From Burkholderiales bacterium PBB2 (GTDB taxonomy: Bacteria > Pseudomonadota > Gammaproteobacteria > Burkholderiales > Burkholderiaceae_C), in contig NKIM01000024.1 of NCBI GenBank assembly GCA_002255955.1, positions 1 through 35,714 on the forward strand: a stretch of 35,714 bases of DNA. The letters are read 5' to 3'. The position numbers were made by a program, and so were the translations under genes. Position 1 is the first letter of the stretch. Every line of letters starts with the position of its first letter. This document shows positions 4,161 to 21,408 of this stretch, in pieces. Below the pieces are notes generated by a model, which ran no database searches, was not told the DNA's origin, and saw nothing but the letters and a program-made list of their open reading frames with translations.

Positions 4161-4281
4161 CTGAAGGCTGAATGCGCTTCAGGCATGGCCTTGGTCGGCC
4201 CGAAGCGCTCGAGTGTTCGCAGGGAGCGAGCAGAAGACGAACCCGAGTAGTACGCAGCCCCGGCTGCGAAGGAGACACCCC

Positions 4282-5844
4282 ATGCTTGCTGTCGTGCAAT
4301 CGATGCGCCTGAAAGCGCGCGTCCTGACGGGCTTTGCCCTGGTGATGAGCTTGTTGCTGGCCGGATCGGCCCTGGGCATCTGGCGCATCCAGCAGCTCAA
4401 CGACCGGATCGACCGCCTGGTCAATGTCGACATGGAAGCCCTGGACCTGGCGCGCAGCTGGGCCGGGCTGACCGAATCGAACATCCAGCGCCGCATCATC
4501 ACCATCTGGTCGGACGATGCGGACTTCGTCAAGGCCTTCACCGCCAAGTCCAAGGAAGTCAGCGCCCGGGTCGACAAGATCCAGGACGCTCTGGGCGACC
4601 TGCCCAAATCCGCGGAAAGCGAACGCATCAAGGCCCAGATCGACCAGGCCCGCAAACGCTACCAGGAGCTGCGCGACGACATCGGCAAGCAAAAAGCCGC
4701 CGGCACCGATGTGCGTGCCCGTGTGGTGGGTGAGCTGATCCCGGCGATGGAGGCCTATCTGGAGCCCATCCACGGCTATGCCGAGCAAAGCCGCAAGGAG
4801 CTGCAACAGGCCCGCGATGTGGCCGAGGACCAGGCGCGATCGGCCTTCCGGCTGATCACCGGCCTGCTGATCGGTGCGGCCGCCTGCGGCATCTGGATCG
4901 CCCTGTCCATCACCCGCAGCATCACCGCGCCGCTGGACCAGGCGCGCGACATGGCCGCGCGCATCGCCGAGGGCGATCTGAGCCAGGCGGTCGTCGTGCA
5001 GGGCCGCGATGAGCTGGCCGAGCTGGCCGAATCGCTGGACCAGATGCGCGCCCAGCTGGGCGCCACGATTGCCGATGTGCGCCATGTGGCCGAGCAGGTG
5101 CAGATGGCCTCCAGCGAGATCGCCAGCGGCAATATGGACCTGTCCAACCGCACCGAGCAGGCCGCCAGCAGCCTGGAGCAAACGGGGGCGGCCATGATGC
5201 AGCTGCGCGAAGGCGTGCAGGCCAACGCCCAGGCCGCGCGCCAGGCCGACGAGCTGGCCAAATCGGCTGCGGCCGTGGCCGACCGCGGCGGCGCCATGGT
5301 GCAGCAGGTGGTGGACACCATGACCGACATCCAGCAGTCCTCGGCCCGCATTGCCGACATCACCAATGTCATCGACAGCATCGCCTTCCAGACCAACATC
5401 CTGGCCCTGAATGCGGCCGTGGAAGCGGCCCGTGCCGGCGAACAGGGGCGCGGCTTCGCCGTGGTGGCCAGCGAGGTGCGGGCCCTGGCCCAGCGCTGCG
5501 CGCAGGCGGCGCGTGAGATCAAGAGCCTGATCGGCGCCTCGGCCGAGAAGGTGGAGGCCGGTGGCAAGCTGGTCAGCGCCACCGGCGCCACCATTGCCGA
5601 TGCGGTGCAGAGCGTGCAACGCGTGACCCACATCGTGGCCGAGATCTCCAGTGCCACCAGCGCCCAGGCCAGCACCCTGGGCGAGATCGGCCAGGCCGTC
5701 GGCCATCTGGATCAGATGACGCAGCAGAACGCGTCGCTGGTCGAAGAATCAGCGGCCGCTGCCGAGGGCCTGAAGCAACAAGCGCAGACCCTGGTGAGCC
5801 ACATGGCCAAGTTCCGCCTCGCCGCAGCACGCCGAGGGGAATGA
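4282..5844 (+). CDS. Methyl-accepting chemotaxis protein (chemoreceptor 1)
   Basis: A 520-residue transmembrane chemoreceptor. TM1 is ~12-33 and TM2 ~190-211; between them lies a ~155-residue helical periplasmic region consistent with a four-helix-bundle sensor. HAMP follows at ~212-265 (ITRSITAPLDQARDMAARIAEGDL begins it), then the cytoplasmic signalling hairpin with the near-invariant tip around residues 366-400 ([16 protein letters not shown]). The receptor relays ligand state to CheA/CheW. No C-terminal NWETF-type pentapeptide is present. One oddity is Cys in QRCAQAAREI where the other two receptors here have Ser. The ATG at 4282 is chosen over an open frame extending to 4213 because AAGGAGA sits 7 nt upstream and TM1 is then correctly placed. 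Its stop overlaps the next gene's start (ATGA), implying translational coupling. Confidence 0.96.
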   Translation: MLAVVQSMRLKARVLTGFALVMSLLLAGSALGIWRIQQLNDRIDRLVNVDMEALDLARSWAGLTESNIQRRIITIWSDDADFVKAFTAKSKEVSARVDKIQDALGDLPKSAESERIKAQIDQARKRYQELRDDIGKQKAAGTDVRARVVGELIPAMEAYLEPIHGYAEQSRKELQQARDVAEDQARSAFRLITGLLIGAAACGIWIALSITRSITAPLDQARDMAARIAEGDLSQAVVVQGRDELAELAESLDQMRAQLGATIADVRHVAEQVQMASSEIASGNMDLSNRTEQAASSLEQTGAAMMQLREGVQANAQAARQADELAKSAAAVADRGGAMVQQVVDTMTDIQQSSARIADITNVIDSIAFQTNILALNAAVEAARAGEQGRGFAVVASEVRALAQRCAQAAREIKSLIGASAEKVEAGGKLVSATGATIADAVQSVQRVTHIVAEISSATSAQASTLGEIGQAVGHLDQMTQQNASLVEESAAAAEGLKQQAQTLVSHMAKFRLAAARRGE

Positions 5845-16018: not shown

Positions 16019-16837
16019 TCAGAGCCGGCGATGCTGCAGCGCCGGCAACTGGCTGCGCACCGCGGCCAGGCGCGCGGTGTCCAGCTCGGCCAGCACCAGG
16101 CCCTCGCCTTCCGGCAGGCAGCCCAGCACCTCGCCCCAGGGGTCGACGATCATGGTGTGGCCCCAGGTCCTGCGGCCATTTTCATGCCGGCCACCCTGGG
16201 CCGGTGCCACGATATAGGCCTGGTTTTCGACCGCTCGGGCGCGCAGCAGCAGCTCCCAATGCGCCTGGCCCGTGGTGTAGGTGAAGGCCGAGGGCACGCA
16301 GAACAGATCGCAATGCGGCCGGCCCGCCTGAAAACTCATGGCCCGGTAGAGCTCGGGGAAACGCAGGTCGTAGCAGACGCTCAGGCCGATGTTCAGCCCC
16401 TCGGCCTGCAGCATGACCGGCGTCGCGCCGGCTTCCAGCACCCGCCCCTCGTCGTAGGCCTCGCGGCCGTTGTCGTAGCGGAAGAGATGGATCTTGTCGT
16501 AGCGCGCCGCCAGCCGGCCATCGGGCGCGTAGACACAGCTGGCATTGCGCACGCGCTCGGGGTCGGGGGTGCGCAGCGGCAGGGTGCCGCCCACCAGCCA
16601 CAGGCCCAGCTCCGCCGCGGCCTCGCGCAGCGCGCGCTGGATCGGAGCACTCGGGTCGCCTTCGGTCTCCGCTACCGCCAGCTTGTCGCGGTCCTGCAAA
16701 CCCATCAGGCAGAAGTACTCGGGCAAGGCCGCCAGCTGGGCTCCTTGCGCCGCAGCCTCGGCCAGCCAGTGGCGCGCCCGCGCGAGGTTGGCCGCCACAT
16801 CGGGACCGGACACCATCTGAATCGCTGCGATCTTCAT
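16019..16837 (-). CDS. Carbon-nitrogen hydrolase, Nit1/Nit2-like (putative deaminated-glutathione amidase)
   Basis: A 272-residue cytosolic amidase of the nitrilase superfamily. The catalytic triad is complete: Glu40 in LAALPEYF, Lys115 in RYDKIHLF and Cys155 in SVCYDLRFPELYR. The last block and the KIHLFRYD segment are typical of the Nit1/Nit2 branch, whose bacterial members repair deaminated glutathione. In many gammaproteobacteria and betaproteobacteria such a gene sits next to yhdP and tldD. Here yhdP is upstream but 371 bp away, the gap being filled by two structured repeat units, and no tldD is seen downstream. The assignment to the superfamily is certain; the substrate is inferred. Confidence 0.93.
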   Translation of the reverse strand: MKIAAIQMVSGPDVAANLARARHWLAEAAAQGAQLAALPEYFCLMGLQDRDKLAVAETEGDPSAPIQRALREAAAELGLWLVGGTLPLRTPDPERVRNASCVYAPDGRLAARYDKIHLFRYDNGREAYDEGRVLEAGATPVMLQAEGLNIGLSVCYDLRFPELYRAMSFQAGRPHCDLFCVPSAFTYTTGQAHWELLLRARAVENQAYIVAPAQGGRHENGRRTWGHTMIVDPWGEVLGCLPEGEGLVLAELDTARLAAVRSQLPALQHRRL

Positions 16838-16912
16838 CGGTTCACCTTCGTTCTACGGACATTCAACAACTGGCTGCAATCGGCACTTGGCCGCCGTTGA
16901 GGTTTGGACTGG

Positions 16913-17018
16913 TGCCAAGGGGCGTCGGGCGAGTGCTTCCACTCATGTCCCCCGGTCCGCGCTTCGCGCGGACCTCCTCCTTTACTTCGCTTCAGCACTC
17001 ACCCGACACCCCTTGGCA
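16913..17018 (-). repeat. Structured intergenic unit U1
   Basis: This 106-nt unit reads on the minus strand. Its outer stem pairs 16913-16937 with 16994-17018: 25 positions, 23 Watson-Crick and two that become G-U pairs in a minus-strand RNA. Inside are the conserved 5' strand (GAAGCGAAGTAAAGGAGGAG), an inner hairpin GGTCCGCGC-TTC-GCGCGGACC at 16954-16974, and the conserved 3' strand CGGGGGACATGAGTGGA. The seven stem pairs next to the core differ from those in U2 at nearly every position while staying complementary. It lies between the start of the nitrilase gene and yhdP. Confidence 0.72.
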
Positions 17019-17061
17019 GATCCACCATGGGTGTTTTCTTCGAGGGGCCAGGGAGGCGCGG

Positions 17062-17167
17062 GATCGGGACGACCGGGTGCTCTGCGAAGTGAAGTCAAGG
17101 AGGAGGCGCCCGACGCAGTCGGGCGACGGGGGACATGAACGGAGCAGAGCGCCCGGTCGGCCCGATC
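17062..17167 (+). repeat. Structured intergenic unit U2
   Basis: Also 106 nt, on the plus strand. The outer stem pairs 17062-17085 with 17144-17167 (24 positions, 22 paired, one of the others a T-G wobble). The 5' strand GAAGTGAAGTCAAGGAGGAG differs from that of U1 at two bases. The inner hairpin is GCCCGAC-GCA-GTCGGGC at 17108-17124, and the 3' strand is CGGGGGACATGAACGGA. Its 5' end faces that of U1 across 43 nt (17019-17061), which show no ORF or promoter I can support. It is opposite in sense to the genes on either side. Confidence 0.72.
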
Positions 17168-17180
17168 GTCACCCAAGCCA

Positions 17181-17197
17181 AGGTCCGCAATGTGCCG
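17181..17197 (+). repeat. 17-nt motif AGGTCCGCAATGTGCCG beside unit U2
   Basis: Second copy of the motif found at 12898-12914 (one base different, opposite strand). It lies 13 nt past the 3' end of unit U2 and 12 bp before the yhdP stop codon. Its placement relative to a structured unit is the same in both loci. Confidence 0.6.
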
Positions 17198-17208
17198 CTT
17201 ACCGCCGC

Positions 17209-20200
17209 TCACGGCTGACGCTCCGCAGCGCTGGCGGGTGTCGATGCCTCCTCGGCCTTGTGCTCCACCTTCTCCACCTTGGGATCCACCCAGGTGCCGG
17301 TGATGTGGAACTCGCGCGTACTGGCCGCGGCCAAGGGGCGGCTGAGCAGCAGCTGGGCCAGGAAGGTGCCCAGGCCGATGGCCGGATTTACGGCGGCATA
17401 GGCCAGCGAGGCGCCGCCCGCGTTCAGCTCGGGCACCACCAGCACGCGCAGGTTCTGCGTCTCGGCGGCCAAGTCGGCGCGCCCCTCCAGCAGCACGGCC
17501 GCCTGCACGCCGCGGGTGCGCAAATTCTGGCTGCTGGCCACGCCGCGCTCGATCTTCACATCGCCCTGGATGCCGTCGAAGGTGAAGCCTTCCGAGAAGA
17601 CATCGCGGAAATCGAACAGAAAGCGCCGCGGCAACGACTGCAGGCTCAACACCCCGAGCAGGCGGCCCACACCGGGCTCCACGGTCAGGAACTGGCCCGA
17701 CTCCAGCGCCACATGCAGCTGGCCGCTCATGCTGGCGTAATCGGGCGAAAGCGGCGAACCGGCCCAGCCGATCTGGCCGGTCAGCTCACCGCGGCCGCCC
17801 CGCAAGACCCGACCCTGGCCCATGCGCTCGAGCAGGCTGCCCGCGTCCAGCAGCTCCAGCTTCCAGTCCAGCTCGCTGCGGCGCTGCGCCTGGCCGGGCT
17901 CATTGATCCAGCGGCCGGTGCCGTTGAGCACGGCGTCGGCCGCCCTGAGCTGCAGCTTGTTGAGATGCCAGTCGCGCTGCGGGCCGGTGGCGCGGGCCTG
18001 CACTTCCAGGCGGCCCAGATGCTTGTCGCGCAGCTCGAAGTCATCGACCACGATGTCCAGATCGGGCACGCTGCGGGTTTCGCTGCTGCTCGTGTCCGCC
18101 TGCGGCTTGCCGGCCAGCAGCTGGCTGACCGACTCCACCTCCTGCTTGGGCAGGGAGAGCCGCCCCAGGCGCGCAAACACCAGGCCGTTGCCGGCATTGC
18201 GATGCTCCACATAGCCGCTCAGCTGATCGGCATCGAGGCTGAAGCGCCAGCTGCGCAGATCGCCGCCGGGCAGGCGGCTGGCGCCCAGCACCAAGCGGTT
18301 CAGGGTTCGGCCGGCCAGATGCAGGCTGCTGGCGCGCAGGGCGATCTGCTGGGGCAGATAGCTGAGCTCGGCACCCTCGCCCTCTGCGGAAGGGGTCGCA
18401 GCGGCAGCAGCCGTGCCCGCCGCGCTGCTGCTGCTCTGCCAACGGCCCAGGGTCTGGCGCCAGGCATCGAGATTGAGGCTGTCGAGATTGGCGTGCAGCT
18501 GCACGCCGCTGGTCGGCAGCGGCGGCAGATTGTCCTGCACGCTCAGGGCGCCGCGCAGCACCCGCGCGGGCTCCACCGTCAGGTCGCGCTGGTAATGGGC
18601 CAGCACCGTGTTGCCCAGTTCCAGGCGCAGCTCATCGCGCGCCGCCTGGCTGGCACCGGCGGCCAGCGGCGCCAGCACGGTCTGCACGCGCAGGGGCAGG
18701 ATGCTGTCGGCCTCCTTGCGCAGCGGCGCCGGCAGATCCAGGGCCAGGCCTTGCAGATTGCTGCTGAGCTGGAACTCGGGCTGGCCGTGGCTGAGCCCCA
18801 GCTGCAGGCGATAAGCCGCCTGGCCGCTGGCGGCCTGGGCCAGGGGCGCCACAGCGCTGAACTCGGGCGTGCGGCGCAAGGCCTCGGCCGTGGTCACGCC
18901 CTGGGCCACGAAACGCAGGCTGCCGTCGGGCAGGCTGCCGCCCTCGATGGCGGCGTCGCCACCGGCCACGCGCGCCTGGGCTCCGACGATCCGGACGCTG
19001 CCCTGGTCGAACTCGATGCGGCCGCGGGCATTGCCCAGCAAGGGCACGCCGGGGCGGATGCGCAGCTCGTTGCCGCCCAGCTGCACGGCGCCGCGCACCT
19101 TGCTGTGGACGATGTCATGCAGGGGCAGGCTGAGGTGCAGCTTGAGGGCGGCCGGTCCGCTGGCCGAGGTCTGGGCCAGCATGCCATTGGTCCAGCCATT
19201 GACCGGTGAGCTGCGCACATAACGCAGCAGCTCCTGGGCCGGGCCGCTGCCGCTGCCATCGATGTCCAGCACCTGGTCGTGCAAGAGGCTCTTGATCCCG
19301 CCGCTGATGCCATTCAGCTCGTAGCCGAACACCCGCGCCTGGCCGCGGCGGATCGTCATGCTGCCCCGCTCGAACACCAGCTCGGCATTGACGCGCTCGA
19401 GCGCCGGCCAGTTCAGGGCCTGGCCCGGTTCGACCGGCACGTAGGCCAGATCGATGTCACGCGCCTGGGTGCTGATGCGGAACTGGCCCGCGCGTTCGCT
19501 GCTCTCGAAGGGAAACTCGTGCAGCGGGCCGCGCACTTTGAAATTGATGGCGCGCGCCTCGCCGCCGCGGATGGCTTCGCGCACATAGTGCAGCGCATGC
19601 TCGCCCACGGCCAGGGGCAGGTAGGCCACCACCCGGCGCGCGTCGATGCGCTCGATCTTGCCGTTCAGATCCATCCAGCCGAAAGGCTGGGTGTCTGAGC
19701 CGGCGCGCCAGACGGCGTCGAACTCGCCGCGCAGATCGGCATTGGCCAGCTGCAGGTCCTTAACGCGCAGCTCCAGGCGGTGGCCGGGCTTGGCAGCGGG
19801 GTCCAGGCGCCAATCGAGCCGGGCGCTCAAGTGCTTGAAGGGCGGCAAGGGGTTCTGGAACACGCCCGGGACATCCAGCCGCCCACCCTCGGCCAGGCTG
19901 AGCTTGGCCTGGCCGCCGCGCTCGCTGGCCTCCAGCTGCAGGCGCAGGCCGTCGAAGCCGGGCCGGCCCACAGCAGCATGCGAGGCCGGATCGGCCGGTG
20001 GCAGCGCAGGCCGCGCCGCCATGCGCAAGCCGTCGATCTGGGCCTTGATCTGGTAGCTGCGCGGCGCCTCCAGCGGGCCGTCCCAGCGCGCGTTCAGGTC
20101 GCTCAGCACCCCTTGGGGCGCCAGATCGGCCAGGCGCGCGCGCGCGGCCTCACCGACCGGCAGGCGTTGCAGCAGCTGGGCCAGCAAGGCCATGTCCAGG

Positions 20201-21408
20201 CGTTGCACCTGCAAATCACCACCGAGCAGGGGCGGCAGCCCGGCGGCTGAAGCGCCCGCCGAGACGGTCGAGCTTGCCCCCGCCGCCTTGCCCAGGCGCA
20301 GGCGCAAGCCCCAGTCCGAGCGCGGCCACACCGTGCCGTCGCCGCTGACAAAGCCCAGCTGCTTGGCCTGCAGCGAGAGCTGTTGCGGCTCGTTGAGCAG
20401 CTGCAGCCGGCCTTCGATGCGGGCCAGGTCCAGGGGTTCAGCCTGCGGGTCCAGGCGCAGCTTGACCGAGCGCAGGCCCAGGTCCACGGTCACGCCCTGG
20501 GATTCGCCTTTTTTGTAATCCAGCCAGGCACGCAGGGCGCCATCGCCCTCGCTGAGCTCGAAGGGCAAGTCCACATGGCGGCGCAGCTGGTGCAGGTCGG
20601 CGCGCGGCAGGTCGGCATAGAGCTGGCCGCTCCAGCTGCGCAGCTCGGAAGGGCGCTTGAGCAGCTGTTGGCGGAACTGGCCCTGCAGGCTGAAGCGCTG
20701 GCCCCAGTCGGGCGGCGGGCTGGCATCGAGGCGGAAGCCATGCTCGCGCAAGCCGTTGCGCATGACCAGGTTCAGATCGGACAGCTCCAGCGGCGGCGCG
20801 TCGCGGCGCTCGTCCACCCAGCGGATGCGGCCCTGGAGGATGACGAACTCATGCTGGCTCAGCAGCCAGTCGGCCCAGGCCTCGGCCATATCGGCCGTCT
20901 GCACCTGGGGCGCGGCATCGACGTTGAGGCCGGCGACAAAGATATGGCCCTGGCGGTCGCGGCGGATCTCCAACTGCGGCGCATCGATCAGCAGCTGCTC
21001 GAAGCGCAGCTGCCAGGCCAGCACCGAGCGGGCCGACAGAGCGGCGGCCACACGCGGCAGGCGCAGGGCCTCGCGGCCTTGCGGGTCGAGCAGGCGCACA
21101 TCGCGCAGCTCCAGGGCCGGCACCCAGCCGCCCGAGGTGACGGTGATGCTGCCGATGCGCAGCGGCACGCCCAGGGCGGACGAGGCGCGCTGCTCCAGCT
21201 GCGGGCGCCAGTCGTCGATGCGCGGCAGCACCAGCCAGTGCAGGGCCAGCCAGGCCAGCAAGACCACGCCCCAGGCCAGCAGCAGCAGGCCTAGCAACCA
21301 GCGCCCGCCCACACGCAGCCAGCGCAAAGGGCGACGCCAGCCGATCAAGCCGGCGGGGCCTGAGGCGGGGCTGGGGGCGGCAGCGGGGTCTCGGCTGAGC
21401 TCGGGCAT
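17209..21408 (-). CDS. yhdP: YhdP family AsmA-like envelope protein
   Basis: A 1399-residue protein anchored by one N-terminal transmembrane helix (~37-61, LLGLLLLAWGVVLLAWLALHW) with the rest in the periplasm. The segment after the helix (LVLPRIDDWRPQLEQRASSALGVPLRIGSI) and the C-terminal block (GRADLAAETQNLRVLVVPELNAGGASLAYAAVNPAIGLGTFLAQLL, given here only as its start RADLAAETQNLRVLVVPELN) are typical of YhdP (TIGR02099, DUF3971 and AsmA_2). Family members form long beta-groove bridges thought to carry phospholipids from the inner to the outer membrane. Length is close to that of E. coli YhdP (~1266) with some extra Ala-rich linker around residues 1000-1010. It is divergent from glnE across 264 bp. 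The nitrilase gene lies downstream beyond the paired repeat units. Confidence 0.92.
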   Translation of the reverse strand: MPELSRDPAAAPSPASGPAGLIGWRRPLRWLRVGGRWLLGLLLLAWGVVLLAWLALHWLVLPRIDDWRPQLEQRASSALGVPLRIGSITVTSGGWVPALELRDVRLLDPQGREALRLPRVAAALSARSVLAWQLRFEQLLIDAPQLEIRRDRQGHIFVAGLNVDAAPQVQTADMAEAWADWLLSQHEFVILQGRIRWVDERRDAPPLELSDLNLVMRNGLREHGFRLDASPPPDWGQRFSLQGQFRQQLLKRPSELRSWSGQLYADLPRADLHQLRRHVDLPFELSEGDGALRAWLDYKKGESQGVTVDLGLRSVKLRLDPQAEPLDLARIEGRLQLLNEPQQLSLQAKQLGFVSGDGTVWPRSDWGLRLRLGKAAGASSTVSAGASAAGLPPLLGGDLQVQRLDMALLAQLLQRLPVGEAARARLADLAPQGVLSDLNARWDGPLEAPRSYQIKAQIDGLRMAARPALPPADPASHAAVGRPGFDGLRLQLEASERGGQAKLSLAEGGRLDVPGVFQNPLPPFKHLSARLDWRLDPAAKPGHRLELRVKDLQLANADLRGEFDAVWRAGSDTQPFGWMDLNGKIERIDARRVVAYLPLAVGEHALHYVREAIRGGEARAINFKVRGPLHEFPFESSERAGQFRISTQARDIDLAYVPVEPGQALNWPALERVNAELVFERGSMTIRRGQARVFGYELNGISGGIKSLLHDQVLDIDGSGSGPAQELLRYVRSSPVNGWTNGMLAQTSASGPAALKLHLSLPLHDIVHSKVRGAVQLGGNELRIRPGVPLLGNARGRIEFDQGSVRIVGAQARVAGGDAAIEGGSLPDGSLRFVAQGVTTAEALRRTPEFSAVAPLAQAASGQAAYRLQLGLSHGQPEFQLSSNLQGLALDLPAPLRKEADSILPLRVQTVLAPLAAGASQAARDELRLELGNTVLAHYQRDLTVEPARVLRGALSVQDNLPPLPTSGVQLHANLDSLNLDAWRQTLGRWQSSSSAAGTAAAAATPSAEGEGAELSYLPQQIALRASSLHLAGRTLNRLVLGASRLPGGDLRSWRFSLDADQLSGYVEHRNAGNGLVFARLGRLSLPKQEVESVSQLLAGKPQADTSSSETRSVPDLDIVVDDFELRDKHLGRLEVQARATGPQRDWHLNKLQLRAADAVLNGTGRWINEPGQAQRRSELDWKLELLDAGSLLERMGQGRVLRGGRGELTGQIGWAGSPLSPDYASMSGQLHVALESGQFLTVEPGVGRLLGVLSLQSLPRRFLFDFRDVFSEGFTFDGIQGDVKIERGVASSQNLRTRGVQAAVLLEGRADLAAETQNLRVLVVPELNAGGASLAYAAVNPAIGLGTFLAQLLLSRPLAAASTREFHITGTWVDPKVEKVEHKAEEASTPASAAERQP

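Follow-up and report, generated by a model that had tools for sequence, protein, structure and literature searches.

The locus and its two stem-loop units

The window analysed here is the 35,714-nucleotide stretch of contig NKIM01000024.1 from Burkholderiales bacterium PBB2, read on the forward strand. Between the genes yhdP and that of a nitrilase-family carbon-nitrogen hydrolase, both of which lie on the minus strand, the window contains an intergenic element built from two stem-loop units, U1 and U2, that are placed head to head and flanked by inverted arms (Table 1). The initial annotation of this DNA had described two units of equal length (106 nt) in head-to-head order across a 43-nt spacer, and its coordinates, lengths, spacer and order are all as claimed. 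The extent it gave was too small, however, as the inverted arms enclose a larger element of positions 16872-17206. Neither a promoter nor a terminator match was obtained at this site.

Table 1. Features of the element and its neighbouring genes, in window coordinates
Feature	Positions	Strand	Pfam
Unit U1: 106-nt stem-loop with 25-pair outer stem, conserved core and 9-pair inner hairpin	16913..17018	-	
Unit U2: 106-nt stem-loop, homologue of U1, head to head with U1	17062..17167	+	
Spacer separating the outer stems of U1 and U2, 43 nt	17019..17061		
U1 core, 5' strand GAAGCGAAGTAAAGGAGGAG	16974..16993	-	
U1 core, 3' strand CGGGGGACATGA	16943..16954	-	
U1 inner hairpin	16955..16973	-	
U2 core, 5' strand GAAGTGAAGTCAAGGAGGAG	17086..17105	+	
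U2 core, 3' strand CGGGGGACATGA	17127..17138	+	
U2 inner hairpin	17106..17126	+	
Left flanking segment with end arm (GGCTGNNNNCGGCAC...), common to other own-genome copies	16872..16912	+	
Right flanking segment; end arm GGCGGNNNNCGGCAC on the minus strand is the inverted match of the left arm	17168..17206	-	
yhdP gene, 5' of the element in the direction of transcription	17209..21408	-	PF13116
Gene for a carbon-nitrogen hydrolase of the nitrilase family, downstream of the element	16019..16837	-	PF00795

The details claimed for the two units are likewise found in the letters. The 20-nt 5' core strands GAAGCGAAGTAAAGGAGGAG and GAAGTGAAGTCAAGGAGGAG agree at 18 of 20 positions and face the same 3' strand, CGGGGGACATGA. 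The seven pairs of the outer stem that adjoin the core, GAGTGCT/AGCACTC in U1 and GCTCTGC/GCAGAGC in U2, differ between the units and are paired in both, and a T stands opposite a G within the GGGTG/CGCCC part of each. When the purine strands are folded as RNA, U1 reaches -74.2 kcal/mol (z -11.5) and U2 -67.7 kcal/mol (z -7.8), energies that none of 200 shuffles equalled. Their complements fold at -63.1 and -60.2 kcal/mol, so that the purine strands are better by 7.5-11.1 kcal/mol. Folding of the purine strands as DNA also beats shuffled sequences, with z-scores of -8.9 for U1 and -7.4 for U2.

Conservation of the fold

Each unit is conserved as a fold far more than as a sequence, which bears out the earlier claim of selection on a folded structure. 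In a fixed register, with no pairing condition imposed, pairing at k7-28 reaches 90% of positions or more in 204 of 223 units. A covariance-model alignment was made from 88 of at least 119 unit-bearing stretches, in which 150 of 155 matches could be aligned; being fitted to the model, it leans towards structure. In these 150 units 92.4% of cells pair, compared with 60.2% when shuffled, and 1683 cells are altered on both sides, compared with 466. Both-side change occurs in 36 of the 39 pairs (shuffled mean 33.2). The alignment has a covariation score of 0.763, against 0.178 for shuffled and at most 0.136 for slid alignments. Such strong covariation is unusual for an interspersed family that is apparently undescribed.

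Relatedness among units was handled solely by clustering: the 213 of 223 units in which 70% or more of positions k7-28 pair were kept and gave 117 clusters with less than 75% flank identity, referred to below as distinct units. Of these 117, 88 possess an outer stem of 22-26 pairs. The core itself covaries, with one pair of columns reading A-T or G-C in 103 and 13 distinct units (and C-G in 1), a second reading A.G or G.A in 95 and 16 (and A.A in 6), and a third reading G.G or A.T in 114 and 3; all units were found by patterns demanding the core with few substitutions, so its variation is under-sampled. This covariation, which includes the A.G/G.A and G.G/A.T columns, indicates that the purine loop acts as a structure that is paired, in part by non-canonical pairs. 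Of a proposed GTC/GAC helix the third pair fails in 109 of the 150 aligned units, which makes this helix weak. GGAG precedes the inner hairpin in most units, as counted among those pairing at k7-20 and with a search pattern that itself required GGAG.

Order and spacing of the units

The head-to-head order is nearly invariant. Among the matches listed by the pattern search, units lying no more than 400 nt apart form 65 head-to-head pairs and 1 pair of other order, and 59 units are single. The covariance model, applied to 88 of at least 119 stretches, places all 58 neighbouring pairs head to head and leaves 34 single units, 11 of which lie less than 300 nt from the end of a stretch. The spacer between the outer stems of these 58 doublets measures 40-47 nt in 32 and exactly 44 nt in 12. 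The sequence of the twelve 44-nt spacers is weakly conserved, at 36% identity against 27% when shuffled. The preference for 44 nt hints that both units act together, a property that RNA read-through would not need.

Which strand folds

A G.T pair on one strand reads as A.C on the opposite strand, and the ratio of the two mismatches thus carries information on which strand is kept foldable. Across the 117 distinct units G.T outnumbers A.C by 207 to 20. The excess is seven- to tenfold in both members of the pair: among 55 doublets, a set that omits those with similar left units or short flanks, G.T and A.C number 93 and 13 in left members and 103 and 12 in right members. In 31 of the 55 G.T exceeds A.C in both members, and in 4 one member is richer in A.C. 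Within the own genome (PBB2) the ratio is 42:3 for U1 types and 28:0 for U2 types, these being related copies. Given that G.T on one strand is A.C on the other, this excess means that the purine strand of each unit is the one preserved in foldable form, and each unit seems to be selected to fold there. A cruciform was considered as the selected state and rejected by reasoning, as it forms the hairpins of both strands and would not favour G.T over A.C.

The intergenic region between pccB and pccA offers a view of the element evolving in place, since five MAGs carry a doublet there (L098, L127, L137, L142 and L195). The unit antisense to the two genes shows 42 both-side changes (permuted mean 16.4, maximum 26) and the sense unit 26 (permuted mean 13.8, maximum 23), each count being a sum over ten non-independent sequence pairs. 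The antisense unit retains its fold and a G.T bias of 8:1, which a single sense mRNA fails to explain. In L195 pccA begins about 2 kb farther away, and a third unit lies in between. A sixth pccB-pccA locus, L171, has unrelated stems; it was left out of the permutation test and included in the G.T tally. We infer that a single transcript is not the sole selected form, which leaves RNA from both strands or single-stranded DNA. The mismatch spectrum, compared for RNA and single-stranded DNA, is not decisive.

Copies and distribution of the family

A BLAST search of the PBB2 genome with the doublet returned 39 matches. The exact core pattern occurs 19 times in this genome and its reversed control pattern 0 times, and a covariance model made from ten own-genome units also gives 39 matches, made up of 32 distinct places and 7 opposite-strand readings of those units. 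Taken together, the pattern counts and the model matches show that the family is not a product of chance in this genome. The model unit comprises 106 positions, and most matches span all of them (1-106).

Outside the own genome the family is patchy, as a stricter form of the core was found in just 3 genomes of a 300-genome sample of Burkholderiales, namely the own genome and two from a different family. Among named genomes, a scan found at least 119 unit-bearing stretches beyond PBB2, several of them from single genomes. Among the matches listed, the hosts are mostly Betaproteobacteria, with some Luteimonas, Lysobacter and Pseudoxanthomonas; further genera listed are Rubrivivax, Hydrogenophaga, Rhodoferax, Ideonella, Methylibium, Rhizobacter, Variovorax, Paucibacter, Roseateles, Caldimonas, Aquabacterium, Sulfuritalea and Sulfurisoma. 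The range spans two classes, Luteimonas belonging to the Gammaproteobacteria and Sulfurisoma to the Betaproteobacteria. The covariance model detects the family in all 15 unit-bearing genomes on which it was run, with 2 to 109 matches each among the matches listed; at most 150 candidates were scored per genome, and some matches may be opposite-strand readings. In Luteimonas terricola, the stretch L122 holds two oppositely oriented doublets (576-790 and 4246-4461) about 3.5 kb apart.

Phage records contained no unit match, and two viral contigs carry one. A plasmid of Burkholderia anthina, conjugative by prediction, also carries a unit, which lies between annotated genes of a catabolic cluster. 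In NZ_CP071828.1 (L423, about 2480-2600), a unit with no recognisable intact partner lies in a catechol-pathway cluster on a predicted conjugative plasmid.

Arms, target duplications and mobility

The initial annotation had suggested that the family may be mobile, and the dispersed copies in the own genome, together with inverted arms and target duplications in Luteimonas, substantiate this. Luteimonas terricola has 45 matches to the arm GGYTCWTCTCCC and 0 to a control. The model-selected loci there contain 17 doublets, of which 7 are flanked by arms on both sides, 8 on a single side and 2 on neither; a separate set of 20 Luteimonas loci was selected by its arms, so that the arm count in that set is biased. 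Direct repeats of 8 bp lie at the flanks, such as TTTTTCGT on both sides in L385 and TTTTTCTT in L375. The flanking 8-mers agree at 7-8 of 8 positions in 8 of 30 delimited intervals, compared with 3.3% of 870 swapped pairs, and an A/T run of at least 5 adjoins the left arm in 15 of the 30, compared with 0.12% of background windows; the 30 intervals include some with a chance arm match as inner end. By eye, several Luteimonas terricola elements directly follow GC hairpins typical of terminators.

Other lineages have different arms or none. The own-genome arms GGCKGNNNNCGGCAC are found at 11 of 20 loci, those of Rubrivivax Ww161 (CGGCCCGTTGCGGCCGTTC, up to 3 substitutions) at 9 of 10, and ATGAAACTCGACGT-like arms at 5 of 30 loci of Sulfurisoma and Nitricoxidireducens. 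Flank pairs from different doublets that share a 12-mer number 161 of 544 for Luteimonas terricola, 6 of 24 for Caldimonas, 10 of 112 for Rubrivivax Ww161, 3 of 144 for Sulfurisoma and 1 of 60 for Hydrogenophaga pseudoflava (6 doublets), for which no arm is therefore shown. By eye, no target duplications were seen in the own genus.

The window's site was also compared in 16 relatives in which it could be resolved, 2 of which have another palindrome there and 14 a spacer too short for a doublet. In the relative G310 a different palindrome lies inside related arms, and in G309 yet another. Arms and payload look modular in the own genus.

Search for a mover

According to the initial annotation, the units could be REP-like elements served by RAYT transposases, and this reading is not supported. 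The own genome does contain three Y1 genes, two of which exceed the RAYT cut-off and the third of which falls just short of it. Two RAYT-like genes of this genome are flanked by a different repeat, built on GGGGTCAG (AATTGGGGTCAGATCCCAATT in L021; positions about 640-670 and 1430-1460 in L021, about 1115-1130 and 1890-1910 in L022). Across 28 unit-bearing genomes, reached from 30 of at least 119 stretches, a RAYT match at E≤0.001 was present in 19, above the curated cut-off in 5, and absent from 9. The wider Y1 family (PF01797) gave nothing in 8 of these nine genomes and a single 27-position fragment in the ninth, which sits at a contig start and may be a cut gene. The nine nevertheless hold 2-109 model matches among the matches listed, five of them with 37-109 and no Y1 match. 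Several are titled as MAGs, and Luteimonas terricola (84 among the matches listed) is titled as a strain. Conversely, the 32 RAYT/Y1 loci contain no real unit, only two loose pattern hits without an outer stem, and three RAYT seeds used in tblastn against unit-bearing loci gave no hit. A RAYT as the required mover was rejected on the grounds of these unit-rich genomes with no Y1 match and the loci with no unit. The family thereby provides a counter-example to reading all GGAG-tagged inverted hairpin doublets as RAYT-driven REPINs.

Other transposases were sought as well. The Luteimonas arms resemble what we take to be ISL3 ends. An ISL3 transposase as their source was rejected, there being no ISL3-type match in Luteimonas terricola; the ISL3-type genes of two relatives (three loci) have no arm pair, with one single arm match that falls inside a gene. 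No inverted arm pair at insertion-sequence spacing was found in Luteimonas terricola, and open-frame clusters near units, judged from their first letters, include no recognisable transposase.

Comparison with known families

At gathering score none of 4227 Rfam families matches the window, and a lax search gave sub-threshold matches only; the Rfam comparison proposed in the initial annotation thus yields no named family. Like the units here, attC sites are conserved more in their single-strand fold than in sequence, and their R-box follows the consensus RYYYAAC / GTTRRRY. Integron attC sites were rejected as an identity for the units: an R-box pair of this consensus occurs in 1 of 213 units, and the units are ordered head to head, not as direct repeats. 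We know of no ERIC/RU element with the doublet architecture or the core described here. By size alone, ERIC/RU are similar to the 106-nt units, being intergenic repeat units of 103-168 bp in the accessible text of PMC2759123.

A likeness in layout exists to the RAYT-associated REPINs and REP-BIMEs, which also consist of two inverted homologous units at a preferred spacing, are dispersed, and have GGAG before the hairpin. They differ in that REPs measure 20-40 bp (accessible portions of PMC3733652) against 106 nt here, and in that the units here have two nested stems around a covarying purine core and reach high copy number in genomes with no Y1 match. NEMIS/Correia elements, the MITEs of Neisseria, resemble the family in their miniature size, in having inverted repeats at their termini and in a long stem that transcripts can form, and their processing by RNase III is reported in the parts consulted of PMC2229807 and PMC10969869. 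Here, however, the interior fold is kept across classes while the ends vary by lineage, and there are two head-to-head units. Prokaryotic MITEs in general, of which a Polaromonas example is cited in the available part of PMC10969869, resemble the family in their inverted arms and, in Luteimonas terricola only, in 8-bp target duplications in A/T runs; unlike them it conserves its interior doublet rather than its ends, the transposase searches described above yielded no parental transposon, and no shared arms were found in Hydrogenophaga pseudoflava. No description of the family was found in the literature searched, which included accessible parts of PMC3116915, PMC3733652, PMC2267715, PMC4666352 and PMC7967276 and outside which most subscription papers lie. 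The doublet family is apparently undescribed.

Interpretation and alternatives

We favour, at a probability of roughly 0.55, the reading that this is a small, non-autonomous, mobile intergenic element of MITE-like kind with a conserved, strand-symmetric folded interior. Its two homologous units of about 106 nt are head to head and conserved as folds, and its arms would be moved in trans by lineage-specific cut-and-paste transposases, in the manner of MITEs, rather than by RAYTs. The head-to-head pair might represent a strand-neutral design, in which whichever strand is transcribed or exposed would show one correct fold. In a read-through transcript, for example from yhdP towards the nitrilase gene, the element may present a stable hairpin that recruits a processing or stabilising factor, and RNase III would be a candidate by analogy with NEMIS/Correia elements.

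The strongest competitor, which we regard as possible though clearly less probable, is that the doublet serves as a single-stranded DNA substrate for recombination or transposition, with the hairpin recognised by a putative non-Y1 nuclease or recombinase and the pair giving a correct hairpin on the exposed strand in replication or transfer. A foldable unit kept on both strands, a spacer held near 44 nt despite weak sequence conservation, the GGAG and following hairpin as in REPs (although the search pattern required GGAG), the occurrence on a predicted conjugative plasmid and the DNA folding of both units all agree with it. The missing arms in Hydrogenophaga pseudoflava, along with weak arms in two other genomes, slightly lower the weight of the MITE-like reading and of the folded-module extension proposed below, and slightly raise that of the single-stranded substrate. 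Outer inverted repeats with 8-bp duplications are, on the other hand, the mark of a double-strand cut-and-paste transposase, and it is with these, not with hairpin cleavage, that the Luteimonas terricola elements end; in addition, no candidate enzyme was found near the units. Those same duplications show transposition and count against a host regulatory RNA or mRNA-processing element, for instance an RNase III site in operons, whose mobility would be only historical. The compensatory changes in the pccB-pccA doublets of five MAGs, the codirectional sites at yhdP/nitrilase and in the plasmid catabolic cluster, and an outer stem of 22-26 pairs in most distinct units (88 of 117) would all suit an RNA of this sort, but 2 to 109 model matches per genome (among the matches listed) would not, nor would a site that in the relatives of PBB2 holds another palindrome (2 of 16) or a spacer too short (14 of 16). 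We consider it unlikely. Lowest of all we place a classical REPIN, that is, two inverted REPs served by a RAYT (TnpA-REP), which appears very improbable. The inverted doublet, preferred spacing, dispersed copies and GGAG before the inner hairpin recall one, and three own-genome Y1 genes and RAYT matches in 19 of 28 unit-bearing genomes are in keeping with it; it is contradicted by the 9 of 28 genomes with no RAYT yet 2-109 model matches (five of them at least 37, among the matches listed), by 0 of 32 RAYT/Y1 loci with a real unit, by the other repeat adjoining two own RAYT-like genes, and by a unit length far from that given for REPs in the accessible part of their description.

Going beyond the MITE-like reading, we put forward tentatively, as a doubtful rather than a probable extension, that the doublet is a transferable folded module with a function of its own. 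It might be carried by unrelated miniature-transposon shells across lineages of Beta- and Gammaproteobacteria, and a putative conserved factor might read it in single-stranded form, as RNA or DNA, by recognising the purine-purine core at a fixed distance from the end of the two-turn stem. If true, this would constitute a new class of strand-symmetric structured element. Two testable questions follow from the family, namely why the interior of a mobile element stays conserved while its ends do not, and whether pairing the units head to head serves to show one correct hairpin on either strand.

Elements with related arms or distinctive ends

Several further elements were observed in the course of the analysis. 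In G310 (L211/L245, at the window's site) and G309 (L256, L265), arms of the own-genus type also enclose the palindrome ACCACAGAGGCACGGAGACACAGAG and its inverse. Related arms also occur in a third type of element, which measures about 600 nt in L269, has cores of the form AGCGCAGGGAAG-hairpin-CCGGAACCATGAGC and is present in the own genome (L240, L249), in G309 (L241, L250, L268) and in G310 (L269); it is possibly a distant relative of the doublet family. Finally, elements in Nitricoxidireducens (L351, L362-L364) and Sulfurisoma (L388, L393, L395) have GGAGCMACTGAMATG-like ends whose ATG looks like the initiation codon of the following gene, as though a ribosome-binding site were provided by the element.
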